DNA of 64,000 nt from Ferrovibrio sp. GTDB lineage: Bacteria > Pseudomonadota > Alphaproteobacteria > Ferrovibrionales > Ferrovibrionaceae. Shown piece by piece: positions 28,817-32,562 of the stretch. Every line of letters starts with the position of its first letter. The stretch's first letter is position 1. A program made the translations under genes and the position numbers. The notes under the pieces are model-generated. The model worked only from the letters and a program-made list of their open reading frames with translations. It was not told the origin of the DNA and made no database searches. The stretch lies in assembly GCF_017994015.1 (NCBI RefSeq), contig NZ_JAGOLP010000003.1:1-64000 (forward strand), read 5' to 3'.

Positions 28817-29608
28817 TTACCAGGCGGTGGCAACCGCCTTCTGGAATTTGGTCTCGACAAAATCCTTCACTTCCGGCGAGCGATAGGCCTTCACCAGCTT
28901 GGCGACAAAGGGCTTGTCCTTGTCCTTTTCCTGCACCACCAGGATATTCATGTAAGGCGAGCGGGCATCCTCGATGGCGATGGCATCGCGGGTCGGCTGC
29001 AAACCGGCGGGAATGGCGTAATTGGTGTTCACTGCCGCCGCATCCAGCTCGTCGAGCGCGCGCGGCAATTGCGCCGCATCCAGTTCGACAATGCGATACT
29101 TCTTCAGGTTCTCCGTCACATCCAGCGGCGAGGCCTTCAGTCCGGCGGCCGGATTGAGCTTGATGGCACCGGCGCTTTGCAGCAGCAGCAGGGCGCGGCC
29201 GCCATTGGTGGGATCGTTCGGGATGCCGATGCGGGCGCCGTTCGGCAGGTCGGCCAGGCTCTTCACCTTCTTGGAATAGACGCCCATCGGGAACACCACG
29301 GTCTGCGCCACGGTGAGCAGCTTGTAGCCGCGATCCTTGATCTGGTTATCCAGATAGGGCTGGTGCTGGAAGGAATTGGCATCCAGGTCGCCGACATTCA
29401 GCGCGGCATTGGGCTGCACATAATCGCTGAATTCGATGATCTGGATTTGCAGCCCGTCACGCGCCGCGACCTGCTTCACCACATCAAGAATCTGGGCATG
29501 CGGGCCGGGGGTGACGCCAACCTTGATCGGCTTGTCCTGGGCTTGGCCCAGGGTGGGAATAAGCAGCGCGGCCAAGCCGGCAGCGAGCAGGAAACGACGG
29601 GTGGACAT
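28817..29608 (-). CDS. metQ: MetQ-like methionine ABC transporter substrate-binding protein
   Basis: This 263-residue NlpA/MetQ-family protein has an ordinary cleavable signal peptide (MSTRRFLLAAGLAALLIPTLGQA) with no lipobox Cys, unlike E. coli MetQ. The mature part has KPIKVGVTPGPHAQILDVVKQ, the substrate-site FQHQPYLDNQ and GARIGIPNDPTNGGRALLLLQ. It should bind D/L-methionine or its derivatives in the periplasm. The start is at 29608 with AAAGGTGC upstream. It is the third gene of metN-metI-metQ. Confidence 0.93.
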   Translation of the reverse strand: MSTRRFLLAAGLAALLIPTLGQAQDKPIKVGVTPGPHAQILDVVKQVAARDGLQIQIIEFSDYVQPNAALNVGDLDANSFQHQPYLDNQIKDRGYKLLTVAQTVVFPMGVYSKKVKSLADLPNGARIGIPNDPTNGGRALLLLQSAGAIKLNPAAGLKASPLDVTENLKKYRIVELDAAQLPRALDELDAAAVNTNYAIPAGLQPTRDAIAIEDARSPYMNILVVQEKDKDKPFVAKLVKAYRSPEVKDFVETKFQKAVATAW

Positions 29609-29668
29609 GGGAAGCACCTTTCTTGGTCTTTGTTTGCGAGACATTGTTACTCTGGAAATGAACTGCGG

Positions 29669-30322
29669 TTAGCGATGCGCCAGGCGGCGCACCAAGCGGT
29701 CGCCGAGCGACTGCACACCCTGCACAAAGACGATCAGCACGATCACCACGGCGGCCATCACTTCAGGCTGGAAACGCTGGTAGCCATAGCGGATACCGAG
29801 ATCGCCAAGGCCGCCGCCGCCAACTGCGCCGGCCATCGCCGAATAACCGATCAGGCTGACCAGGGTGATGGTGAAGCCGGCAACAATACCGGGCAGCGCC
29901 TCGGGCACCAGCACTTTGCGCACGATCTGCCAGGGCGTGGCGCCCATTGCTTCGGCGGCTTCGATCAGGCCACGCGGCACTTCGCGGAGGGCGGTTTCCA
30001 CCAACCGGGCGATGAACGGAACCGCCGCAATGGTGAGCGGCACGATCGCCGCCAGCGTGCCGATCGACGTGCCAACCACTAGGCGGGTGAACGGGATCAC
30101 CGCCACCATCAGGATGATGAAGGGCGTGGAGCGCGCCGCATTGACCAAGGCGCCCAGCACACGGTTGAGCGGCAGGTTTTGCAGGATATGGCCACGATCC
30201 GTCACCACCAGCACAACACCCAGCGGCAGGCCGAGTAGGGCCGCGATCAGGCCGGACACGCCAACCATCAGCGCGGTTTCAATCAGCGCATCAACCAGCA
30301 GCGCGAGCAAGGCGGACGACAT
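29669..30322 (-). CDS. metI: MetI-like methionine ABC transporter permease
   Basis: This 217-residue permease has exactly the length of E. coli MetI and five membrane segments. The EAA-loop motif is [31 protein letters not shown], where the ATPase docks. Also typical is [22 protein letters not shown]. The start at 30322 overlaps the end of metN by 32 bases, so translation is likely coupled. It forms the membrane channel of the MetNIQ importer. Confidence 0.95.
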
Positions 30323-31376
30323 CGCCGATCTCCTTTTCCGAGAGGGTTTCTACACCAAGCTGCTGCCCGGCCAGATACTGGGTGGCGGCATCAAGCTGTG
30401 CCGGCGCGCCGCGCAATTCCACCACCAGATTGCCGAAGGGCCGGCCCTGGATTTCATCCAGGCGGCCATGCAGCAGGTTGAAATCCAGATCGAAGCGGCG
30501 GATCAGCGCCGACAGAACCGGGCTTTCGGCATTGCCGCCAGTGAAGCGCATGCGCAGCACGCGGCGCTGCTGACCATTGCCGAGGCCTGCCGGTGCCGCA
30601 TCGGCGATCAGGCGTTGCAGGCTTGGCGGCAGGTCGCCGCCCACCAGTTCAGCCACAAAACGCTGCGTGGTCGGCGCCTGCGGCGCGGTGAACACATCAT
30701 AGACCGGGCCTTGCTCGATGATGCGGCCCTGCTCCAGCACGGCCACCCGATCAGCCACTTCCTTGATCACACTCATCTCATGCGTGATCAGCACGATGGT
30801 GAGGCCAAGCCGCGCATTGATATCCTTGAGCAAACCCAGGATCGAGCGGGTTGTCTCGGGATCAAGCGCCGAAGTCGCCTCGTCCGAAAGCAGCACACGC
30901 GGCTGGTTGGCCAGGGCGCGGGCGATGCCGACACGCTGCTTCTGCCCGCCCGATAATTCCGCCGGAAACCGTTCGCGCTTGTCGGCCAGGCCAACCAGAT
31001 CAAGCAACGGCTCGACAATGGCCTGGATGCCCTTGCGGCTTTCGCCGCGCAATTCCAGCGGCAAGGCCACATTGTCATACACACTGCGTGTCGAGAGCAG
31101 GTTGAAATGCTGGAAGATCATGCCGATCTCGTGCCGGGCGCGGCGCAAAGATGCCGGCGGCAAAGCCGTCAGGTCACGGCCGCCGACCCGGACATTGCCG
31201 CGGTCCGGCCGCTCCAGCAGATTGATCAGGCGGATCAGCGTGGATTTGCCAGCGCCGCTTTTGCCGATGATGCCGAAGATTTCGCCTTCGCGGATGCTCA
31301 GGTCGATATCGCTCAGCGCCACAACCGGGCCTTGCGGCGTGACATAACTCTTGGTGATGTTTTGAAGCTGGATCAT
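30291..31376 (-). CDS. metN: MetN-like methionine ABC transporter ATPase
   Basis: This 361-residue ATPase has Walker [15 protein letters not shown] (residues about 36-49), the Q-loop [17 protein letters not shown], the signature [15 protein letters not shown] and Walker [15 protein letters not shown]. The C-terminal NIL domain (residues about 270-350) is the methionine-sensing transinhibition domain. It energises uptake through MetI. Upstream on the same strand are a 13-bp hairpin, a small unknown gene and a long regulatory leader. Confidence 0.96.
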
Positions 31377-31452: not shown

Positions 31453-31776
31453 TCAGCGATCAAAAGGCAGCAGGCTGAGCGACAGCAGGCTGGGCGCGAC
31501 CTGCCAATCCGGCGGCAGGGCCAGCGGGTCGGCCAGCGATGCGGCATCGCGCCCGCCTGCCGGGCTGCTCTTTTCCTCGCGGGCCGATGCCTGCGCCAGC
31601 AATTGCGCCGCCGCGCGCTCGGCCTCGGCCGGGCGCCGGAACAGCCGGTTTTCAATGGCGGCAAACAATGCATGGGCGGCAAAGAAACGGAAGCCGCCAC
31701 GCTCGCGCAGCACCAGGCCGGCATCAACCTGGCGCTGGAATGGATCGGTGGCTTCGATGAGATAGGCTTCAGACAT
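31453..31776 (-). CDS. Small hypothetical protein upstream of metN
   Basis: This 107-residue soluble protein has no recognisable domain. The start at 31776 follows AGAGG by seven bases. The N-terminus is helical and charged (YLIEATDPFQRQVDAGLVLRERGGFRFFAAHALFAAIENRLF); the C-terminus is low complexity. It lies between a regulatory leader and metN, so it is likely the first structural gene of the transporter operon. The N-terminal phrase ATDPFQRQVDAGLVLR hints at a tightly folded small protein, but I assign no function. Confidence 0.6.
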   Translation of the reverse strand: MSEAYLIEATDPFQRQVDAGLVLRERGGFRFFAAHALFAAIENRLFRRPAEAERAAAQLLAQASAREEKSSPAGGRDAASLADPLALPPDWQVAPSLLSLSLLPFDR

Positions 31777-31830
31777 GGGGGAACCTCTATATCGGGATGT
31801 TGGCTTTGATCTGGCGAAGGGCGAGCGGGA

Positions 31831-31881
31831 TCAGGCGCAACAACAACAGAGGCGGAGGGGGCTGGCGAAAAAACCAATCAT
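31831..31881 (-). CDS. Putative 16-residue poly-cysteine leader peptide
   Basis: An ATG at 31881 with GAGGTG five bases upstream opens a 16-codon frame ending at TGA: MIGFFASPLRLCCCCA. Four consecutive Cys codons (TGT TGT TGT TGC, 31837-31848) are its only special feature. The bases GCCTCTGT at 31846-31853, just before and at the first Cys codon, can pair over eight positions (including two G-U pairs) with ATAGAGGT at 31783-31790, which is the Shine-Dalgarno sequence of the next gene. Ribosome stalling at Cys codons could therefore free that site. Poly-Cys leader ORFs are known in mycobacteria; its function here is inference. Confidence 0.6.
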   Translation of the reverse strand: MIGFFASPLRLCCCCA

Positions 31882-31929
31882 GGCGGCACCTCAGACATCA
31901 GAACGGGGACCACGATCCGGGTTTCTGCC

Positions 31930-31990
31930 GGCGTGACGCTTTAGCGGATCAGACACGGCGCAAGCTGCCCCTCAAATTCCCGCAGGAGAA
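31930..31990 (-). ncRNA. Candidate SAM-II-like riboswitch element in the met leader
   Basis: On the minus strand the blocks GGAATTTGAG, then CAGCTTGC, a G/C stem partner GCCGTG, and the terminal GCTAAAGCG appear in the order of SAM-II riboswitches (ATTTG, CTTGC, GCTAAA). CTGCGG can pair with CCGTG only using wobble pairs, and the spacing before GCTAAA is about three bases shorter than I expect. Location upstream of methionine-uptake genes supports it. A covariance-model scan is needed, so confidence is moderate. Confidence 0.42.
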
Positions 31991-32082: not shown

Positions 32083-32111
32083 TATTTCACGCTGTCCGGC
32101 CGAATAGTCAA
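32083..32111 (-). promoter_or_regulatory. Putative sigma-70-type promoter of the met leader operon
   Basis: On the minus strand TTGACT (32106-32111), a 17-base spacer and GAAATA (32083-32088) resemble a vegetative promoter. The predicted start near 32076 gives a leader of about 300 bases before the 107-residue gene. Confidence 0.45.
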
Positions 32112-32193: not shown

Positions 32194-32276
32194 AAAAAAA
32201 CCGGGGCGATGCCGCCCCACGACATCGCCCCGGACCTCGTCGCCCAGACCAGCAGCTCGGCGACGCACTCTCTATG
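32194..32276 (-). ncRNA. Candidate small RNA with two stem-loops and intrinsic terminator
   Basis: On the minus strand there is a first stem (CGTCGCC / GGCGACG, 32238-32265). An 11-pair stem follows (CCGGGGCGATG / CATCGCCCCGG, 32201-32233) directly followed by seven T residues. No convincing gene encloses it. A promoter-like pair sits just upstream at 32283-32311. The predicted RNA is about 80 nt. It lies between the adenylate cyclase gene and the met leader promoter, in an AT-rich intergenic zone. Confidence 0.5.
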
Positions 32277-32282
32277 AAGGGG

Positions 32283-32311
32283 ATAATAATGAGAGTGAAT
32301 TGCAAAAGCAA
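32283..32311 (-). promoter_or_regulatory. Putative promoter of the candidate small RNA
   Basis: TTGCTT (32306-32311, minus strand), a 17-base spacer and TATTAT (32283-32288) match the -35/-10 spacing. The -10 box is good, the -35 box weak. Confidence 0.4.
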
Positions 32312-32562
32312 GAGGGGTTTTAACCCAATGTGATTTTTTTCTGCGGCATTGCAGGCTCATTGTTGGGCATCATATATAATATCAGGATAAATATTTGATT
32401 AGAATGATATATTTCCAAAATCCAAATTTCATATCCACCAGGCAAAAAAGGCTGTGGTGATCGTTGCCTTGAGAAATTAAGCTTGCTGGCAGCCGGCGCC
32501 GTTGCACCATCCGGGCTGAAGCGGCGCCGGTACAGTGGTTTTTAGGCCAGGCGGGAGATTGA

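Follow-up and report, generated by a model that had tools for sequence, protein, structure and literature searches.

A cysteine-ending leader ORF behind a divergent SAM-II-type aptamer in Ferrovibrio suggests one switch reading two sulfur metabolites

The locus described here lies within a 64,000-nucleotide stretch of DNA from Ferrovibrio sp. that was analysed as a whole (the window), and every window feature named below is on the minus strand. A leader open reading frame, MIGFFASPLRLCCCCA, recognised from its sequence and conservation, spans 31831-31881 and comprises 16 codons followed by a stop, beginning at 31881 with ATG ATT GGT TTT TTC GCC AGC CCC CTC CGC CTC and ending at 31831 with TGT TGT TGT TGC GCC TGA. 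The four Cys codons TGT TGT TGT TGC occupy 31837-31848, and a run of three Cys residues (CCC) is kept in relatives. The frame is not leaderless: it has its own Shine-Dalgarno (SD) sequence, GAGGTG (31887-31892; duplex energy -9.2), and lies some 200 nt 3' of a candidate promoter, TTGACT-N17-GAAATA (32083-32111). In these respects, namely a 16-codon ORF with an SD and four Cys codons near its end, the sequence is exactly as the original prediction described it. The promoter pattern is found in eight Ferrovibrio leaders, relatives carrying TTGAYY-N17-AATATA at the same position; the candidate is weak because a generic sigma-70 scan did not list 32083-32111.

The next gene, with its start codon at 31776-31774, is the first gene predicted to be controlled and encodes a small protein of 107 codons (31453-31776) bearing the motif YxIExxxxxAGxVxRERGGFRFFAA. 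Domain matches then identify metN (ABC_tran and NIL; 30291-31376), metI (29669-30322) and metQ of the NlpA family (28817-29644). The leader had been taken to act directly on metN, which does not hold, given that the 107-codon ORF comes first and metN begins only at 31376; the proposed sulfur-uptake context is supported, with the small gene followed by metNIQ. Two genomes, G005 (94% complete) and G007 (98% complete), keep the upstream ORF (uORF) and the small gene without an adjacent metNIQ, and whole-genome searches for metQ gave no match in either. The leader thus follows the small gene, and metNIQ, where present, is predicted to be controlled together with it.

Searches of the small protein against Pfam and NCBIfam returned no match, and comparison with PDB folds no match of weight; structure prediction gives a beta-beta-beta-alpha-alpha arrangement, with high confidence over about the first 65 residues. 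Proteins of this kind, about 60-110 residues long and carrying YxIExxxxxAGxVxxERGGFRFF, are conserved in many alphaproteobacterial genera, where the neighbours of the gene are peroxiredoxin, metNIQ or other genes. In other Ferrovibrio species (L025-L029) the 107-codon ORF is represented by two separate ORFs before metN, one for its N-terminal and one for its C-terminal part, the latter (31453-31560 in the window) ending in ADPLALPPDW...LSLLPFDR; the window's ORF may therefore be a fusion.

A protein search recovered the small ORF from nine Ferrovibrio genomes, the window's included, and gave no match in a tenth, which is 72% complete. Upstream of the small gene, all nine genomes that hold it carry a uORF with Cys codons at its end (LCCCCA, RLCCCRA, QLCCCR, RLCCCR, ILCCCR, LLCCCR or MCCARMCCC), the N-terminal part of which varies freely. 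Loss of the Cys codons and of the pairing beside an intact operon had been named as the outcome that would speak against the leader, and it does not occur within the genus. The comparison of relatives foreseen at the outset bore out that every Ferrovibrio leader preceding the small gene retains its Cys codons, and yielded only modest compensatory changes. The choice of codons is skewed as well: three of the four Cys codons in the leader are TGT, whereas large ORFs of the window use TGT for 13 of 84 Cys codons (TGC 71/84), and the Leu codon preceding the Cys run is CTC in 8/8 Ferrovibrio leaders, a codon that accounts for 159 of the 1191 Leu codons in the window. TGT TGT TGT TGC after CTC would fit CUCUGU as an anti-SD sequence. 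Leader peptides gave no match to NCBIfam models.

This anti-SD strand, GCCUCUGU (31846-31853), is predicted to pair with AUAGAGGU (31783-31790), which includes the SD of the next gene; read from the sequence, the eight positions claimed for this pairing indeed comprise six Watson-Crick and two G-U pairs. The SD is AGAGG in the window's clade and CAACGGAG in the other Ferrovibrio clade, and both pair with CUCUGU(UG). The segment 31774-31853 folds with -21.5 kcal/mol (z -3.55; 0/200 shuffles as stable), a signal found only in this exact segment, a wide fold of the leader including flanks showing nothing unusual (z -0.5). Once the Cys tract is removed from the fold, the SD is unpaired in the centroid; the SD thus opens when the tract is covered, as had been anticipated. 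In the window, the SD is predicted to pair with the tail of the uORF at a probability of 0.93, compared with 0.08 for shuffled tails, and the same pairing is predicted in 8/8 Ferrovibrio leaders tested (0.82-1.0 versus 0.08-0.29). The partner of the SD is centred 1-4 nt 5' of the first Cys codon, the place that a ribosome awaiting Cys-tRNA would occupy. By computation, opening the SD costs 7.1 kcal/mol in the window and 9.4 in L024 when the tract is free, and 4.3 and 2.6, respectively, when it is covered. A ribosome placed at the uORF stop codon is computed to lower this cost equally, so that the switch would rest on ribosome dwell time.

Considered as a helix of ten pairs, the SD pairing has 86% of cells paired; shifting the partner by 1-3 columns leaves 38 to 66%. 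One outer pair changes with the species, occurring as C-G, A-U or U-A. Covariation within the helix is modest (eight related species, two pairs with double changes, equalled by 205/500 shuffles), and L027 and L028 carry a mismatch; the conservation counts are accordingly best taken as support, not proof, for the pairing. An alternative structure that would hide the next SD and involve the Cys tract is, on these predictions, present in Ferrovibrio.

The original prediction, framed around cysteine, did not include a divergent SAM-II-type aptamer upstream of the uORF; with an aptamer in the leader, Cys need not act alone. Aligned leaders contain a second conserved block about 55 nt 5' of the uORF, CGCGG-AUUUGA-GGGCAGCUUGC-CCGCG-GCUAAAGCGCCACG, which in the window corresponds to a SAM-II-like element of the SAM_alpha type at 31935-31984, with P1 UGCGG/CCGUG, AUUUGA, GCUUGC and GCUAAAG. 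It emerged from the alignment of relatives, an Rfam search of the window at gathering level having found no match: RF00521 scores 13 bits in the window, below its 36-bit gathering cut-off, and 26.9 (L016), 36.8 (L075) and 23-34 bits (several others) in relatives. A model built without Ferrovibrio members (R2) matches the window element at 51.1 bits (E 6e-11), and one built from six leaders gives hits at E <=0.01 in 99 of the 385 alphaproteobacterial genomes, the weaker hits being probably ordinary SAM-II. The conserved SAM-II core (AUUUG, GCUUGC, GCUAAAG) is present, and covariation in P1 is supported in 52 distinct relatives.

What sets the element apart is a hairpin, H1 (GUCACG...CGUGGU, 31909-31937), inserted in the 3' strand of pseudoknot P2; beyond it, the P2-extension strand CCCC (31905-31908) is predicted to pair with GGGG just 5' of the aptamer's CAGCUUGC. 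In relatives, the segment before CAGCUUGC likewise pairs with the segment just after the extra hairpin (CCACG...CGUGG), with two-sided changes (GGGC/GCCC, GGGAGC/GUUCCC, AUGGGC/GCCCAU, CGGAG/CUCCG), and over 72 loci the mean score of the extension around H1 is 9.71 versus 8.59 (sd 0.33) under permutation (0/2000). We read the element, from these patterns, as a putative SAM-II aptamer with a hairpin breaking up one strand of its pseudoknot. It was not detected in G007 and G130, though both keep the Cys uORF. The variant aptamer (31905-31984 in the window; L066-L124) occurs in about a quarter of the sampled alphaproteobacterial genomes, mostly below the Rfam cut-off, and in L095, L100, L104, L108, L112, L116 and L120 a further SAM-II match stands in tandem, about 110-180 nt 5' of it.

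Across the Alphaproteobacteria, sulfur genes predominate 3' of the element (O-acylhomoserine sulfhydrylase, siroheme synthase (cysG), MetN, PAPS reductase, metE and metA, among others). Under a strict definition of the uORF (ATG 30-75 nt after the aptamer, <=45 codons, >=2 Cys in the last nine residues), 22 of 30 loci with the small gene or methionine uptake have one, as against 0 of 29 biosynthesis loci (p 8e-10), p-values here and below being indicative only, because the loci are not phylogenetically independent. Randomised leaders contained one in 51 of 6000 cases (0.85%). The uptake-side pattern is repeated in public genomes of Azospirillum, Bosea, Chelatococcus, Microvirga, Labrys, Ancylobacter, Rhodopseudomonas and others; several further Cys uORFs precede proteins that, judged by reading the sequence, are sulfonate- or sulfate-uptake-like, and many uORFs outside the strict filter end in a single Cys. 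Among 52 distinct uORFs from many genera, Cys makes up 0.30 of the last nine residues and 0.03 elsewhere, and Met 7.1% versus 2.9%; the Cys codons comprise 124 TGT versus 59 TGC. Met and Arg codons are also enriched near Cys-uORF ends, and Met might be a second sensed amino acid. The uORF begins a median of 46 nt after GCUAAA, has a good SD in 90% of cases, and its start takes the place that the start of the riboswitch-controlled gene has at biosynthesis loci.

When pairing anywhere in the uORF is counted, the SD pairs more often than expected, 0.65 versus 0.40 overall (p 7e-5) and 0.60 versus 0.41 outside Ferrovibrio (p 0.003). Outside the genus the SD partner is mostly found 5' of the Cys codons, in many cases 20-40 nt away, or is absent, and stalling at such loci would consequently need a queued ribosome or another structure. 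Pairing with the last 12 codons, as in Ferrovibrio, was considered as a general rule and rejected, as it is not general in other families. Since the pairing sites vary in this way, the exact pairing logic appears lineage-specific, and we do not claim a single conserved mechanism; only the Ferrovibrio leaders give good support for a predicted pairing directly at the Cys codons.

A Cys uORF behind a divergent SAM-II-type riboswitch suggests one switch that would read two sulfur metabolites, its parts following one another 5' to 3' as SAM-II-like aptamer, short Cys-ending ORF, small gene and metNIQ. The small gene's SD would, in Ferrovibrio, be held closed by pairing with the first Cys codon and the codons immediately 5' of it. 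A shortage of charged tRNA-Cys would make a ribosome stall on the Cys run, cover the inhibitory strand and free the SD, and when Cys is plentiful the ribosome would depart fast and the SD would close. The leader ORF sits where a riboswitch-controlled gene normally starts, and the aptamer probably adds a SAM input through the translation efficiency of this ORF. Sequence, conservation, predicted pairing, aptamer homology and gene association are what the analysis establishes; that the uORF is translated, that ribosomes stall, that SAM binds and in which direction both responses run we infer. A cysteine-responsive translation attenuator behind a SAM-type riboswitch is in our judgement the best reading of the locus and a reasonably probable one. 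A broader formulation is more tentative, and we would give it a little under an even chance: a widespread alphaproteobacterial two-input leader, with a hairpin in the aptamer's pseudoknot and a uORF enriched in Cys and Met, that would turn on uptake and the small protein only when SAM and charged tRNA-Cys are both low, biosynthesis operons having the aptamer alone.

The SAM riboswitch could instead be the real sensor, with the uORF merely relaying its state, for example by termination-reinitiation, and the Cys codons of minor importance. The strong conservation of the aptamer would agree with this, as would the start of the uORF at the position of the riboswitch-controlled gene start in biosynthesis loci. 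A precedent is found in Mycobacterium tuberculosis ppe2, where a riboswitch controls a translated uORF that the downstream gene needs (PMC11260477); ppe2 differs in its B12 ligand and its reinitiation mechanism, and the abstract describes no Cys-codon sensing. We nevertheless regard this reading as unlikely, for it leaves unexplained why the uORFs converge on Cys codons at their 3' ends only, and G007 and G130 keep the Cys uORF without a detected aptamer.

Somewhat more doubtful still is transcription attenuation, in which a ribosome stalled at Cys codons would keep the leader from terminating, whether intrinsically or through Rho, a mechanism of the kind put forward for uORFC-8-2. The latter, upstream of cysS in Rhodobacterales, combines tandem Cys codons with a terminator (PMC8632094), and Rho has been suggested for actinobacterial Cys leaders (PMC1262725); room for such control is also left outside Ferrovibrio, where the SD does not generally pair at the Cys tract. 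In the window, however, there is no terminator-like site between the candidate promoter and the gene, the uORF-to-gene stretch included, which favours translational control, and the pairing predicted in Ferrovibrio involves the SD itself. The leader shares with uORFC-8-2 an alphaproteobacterial uORF whose Cys codons are the proposed sensor, whereas uORFC-8-2 has two Cys codons, another gene, two stems with a U-run terminator and no described aptamer (PMC8632094); a terminator stem with a U-run of that kind is not found between uORF and gene in the window. A functional peptide, such as a thiol or metal-binding micro-protein, might be thought of given that Cys-rich C-termini recur in many genera, but is very improbable: the spacing and number of Cys vary (CCCC, CRCR, CC, single C), lengths range from 6 to 44 residues with the remainder not conserved, and the choice of Leu codon fits RNA pairing. 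A chance ORF with chance complementarity is scarcely credible, for although about 0.4 short ORFs (<=45 codons) with CCC near the stop are expected per 64 kb (mean of ten dinucleotide shuffles; the window has two), the arrangement is conserved throughout the genus and in many families, shuffled leaders showing it in 0.85% of cases, and the segment's fold was matched by none of 200 shuffles.

Polycysteine uORF attenuators with leaderless ORFs were reportedly established by experiment in mycobacteria (Canestrari et al., 2020, doi 10.1111/mmi.14498). Consecutive Cys codons near the stop, a position 5' of sulfur genes and the lack of a terminator are common to those uORFs and the present leader, for which the Cys-responsive attenuation that characterises the mycobacterial systems is here proposed; unlike them, it has its own SD, stands behind a SAM-II-like aptamer, belongs to the Alphaproteobacteria and precedes a small-protein gene and metNIQ. 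Cys leaders have also been predicted on cys operons in Actinobacteria (Seliverstov et al., 2005, PMC1262725). The metL leader of Streptomyces lividans metNIQ likewise has Cys and Met codons at its end (...GARCMCRRMCAF) and no typical terminator, but is leaderless, actinobacterial, interpreted by its authors as methionine-dependent and reported without an aptamer (PMC8079986). With SAM-II or SAM_alpha (RF00521; PMC1273637, PMC9373788) the element has in common P1, AUUUG, GCUUGC, GCUAAAG and pseudoknot P2, and the leader the association with sulfur genes in Alphaproteobacteria; the extra hairpin in the P2 3' strand and the score of 13 bits against a cut-off of 36 distinguish it. SAM_alpha elements are listed on metY, metA and metX operons in Rhizobiales and Rhodobacterales (PMC4239095). 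Poly-Cys attenuators and SAM-II are thus already known, and we found no description of their combination or of these targets; the literature consulted, which included few subscription papers, describes no alphaproteobacterial Cys leader on methionine uptake or behind SAM-II.

If the proposed reading is correct, a single mRNA leader would join a metabolite-binding RNA with codon-specific ribosome stalling, and this two-input control would apply to sulfur uptake rather than to sulfur biosynthesis. Such leaders would span many alphaproteobacterial genera (Azospirillum, Bosea, Microvirga, Rhodopseudomonas and others) and would fill a gap in an existing comparative study, where SAM_alpha elements are listed neither for the Rhodospirillales covered nor on metNIQ (PMC4239095). 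A conserved but unannotated small protein would gain a physiological context, sulfur limitation, and the leader itself would represent a compact natural two-input RNA switch.

The same genome contains a second, weaker aptamer match (G000:C27:1903-1959, minus strand; 29.4 bits), which is probably an ordinary SAM-II riboswitch. At 32194-32315, 5' of the candidate promoter, lies a terminator-like strong hairpin with a T run, preceded by a conserved stretch with 95% and 90% identity in L022 and L024, respectively, that may be a small RNA gene.
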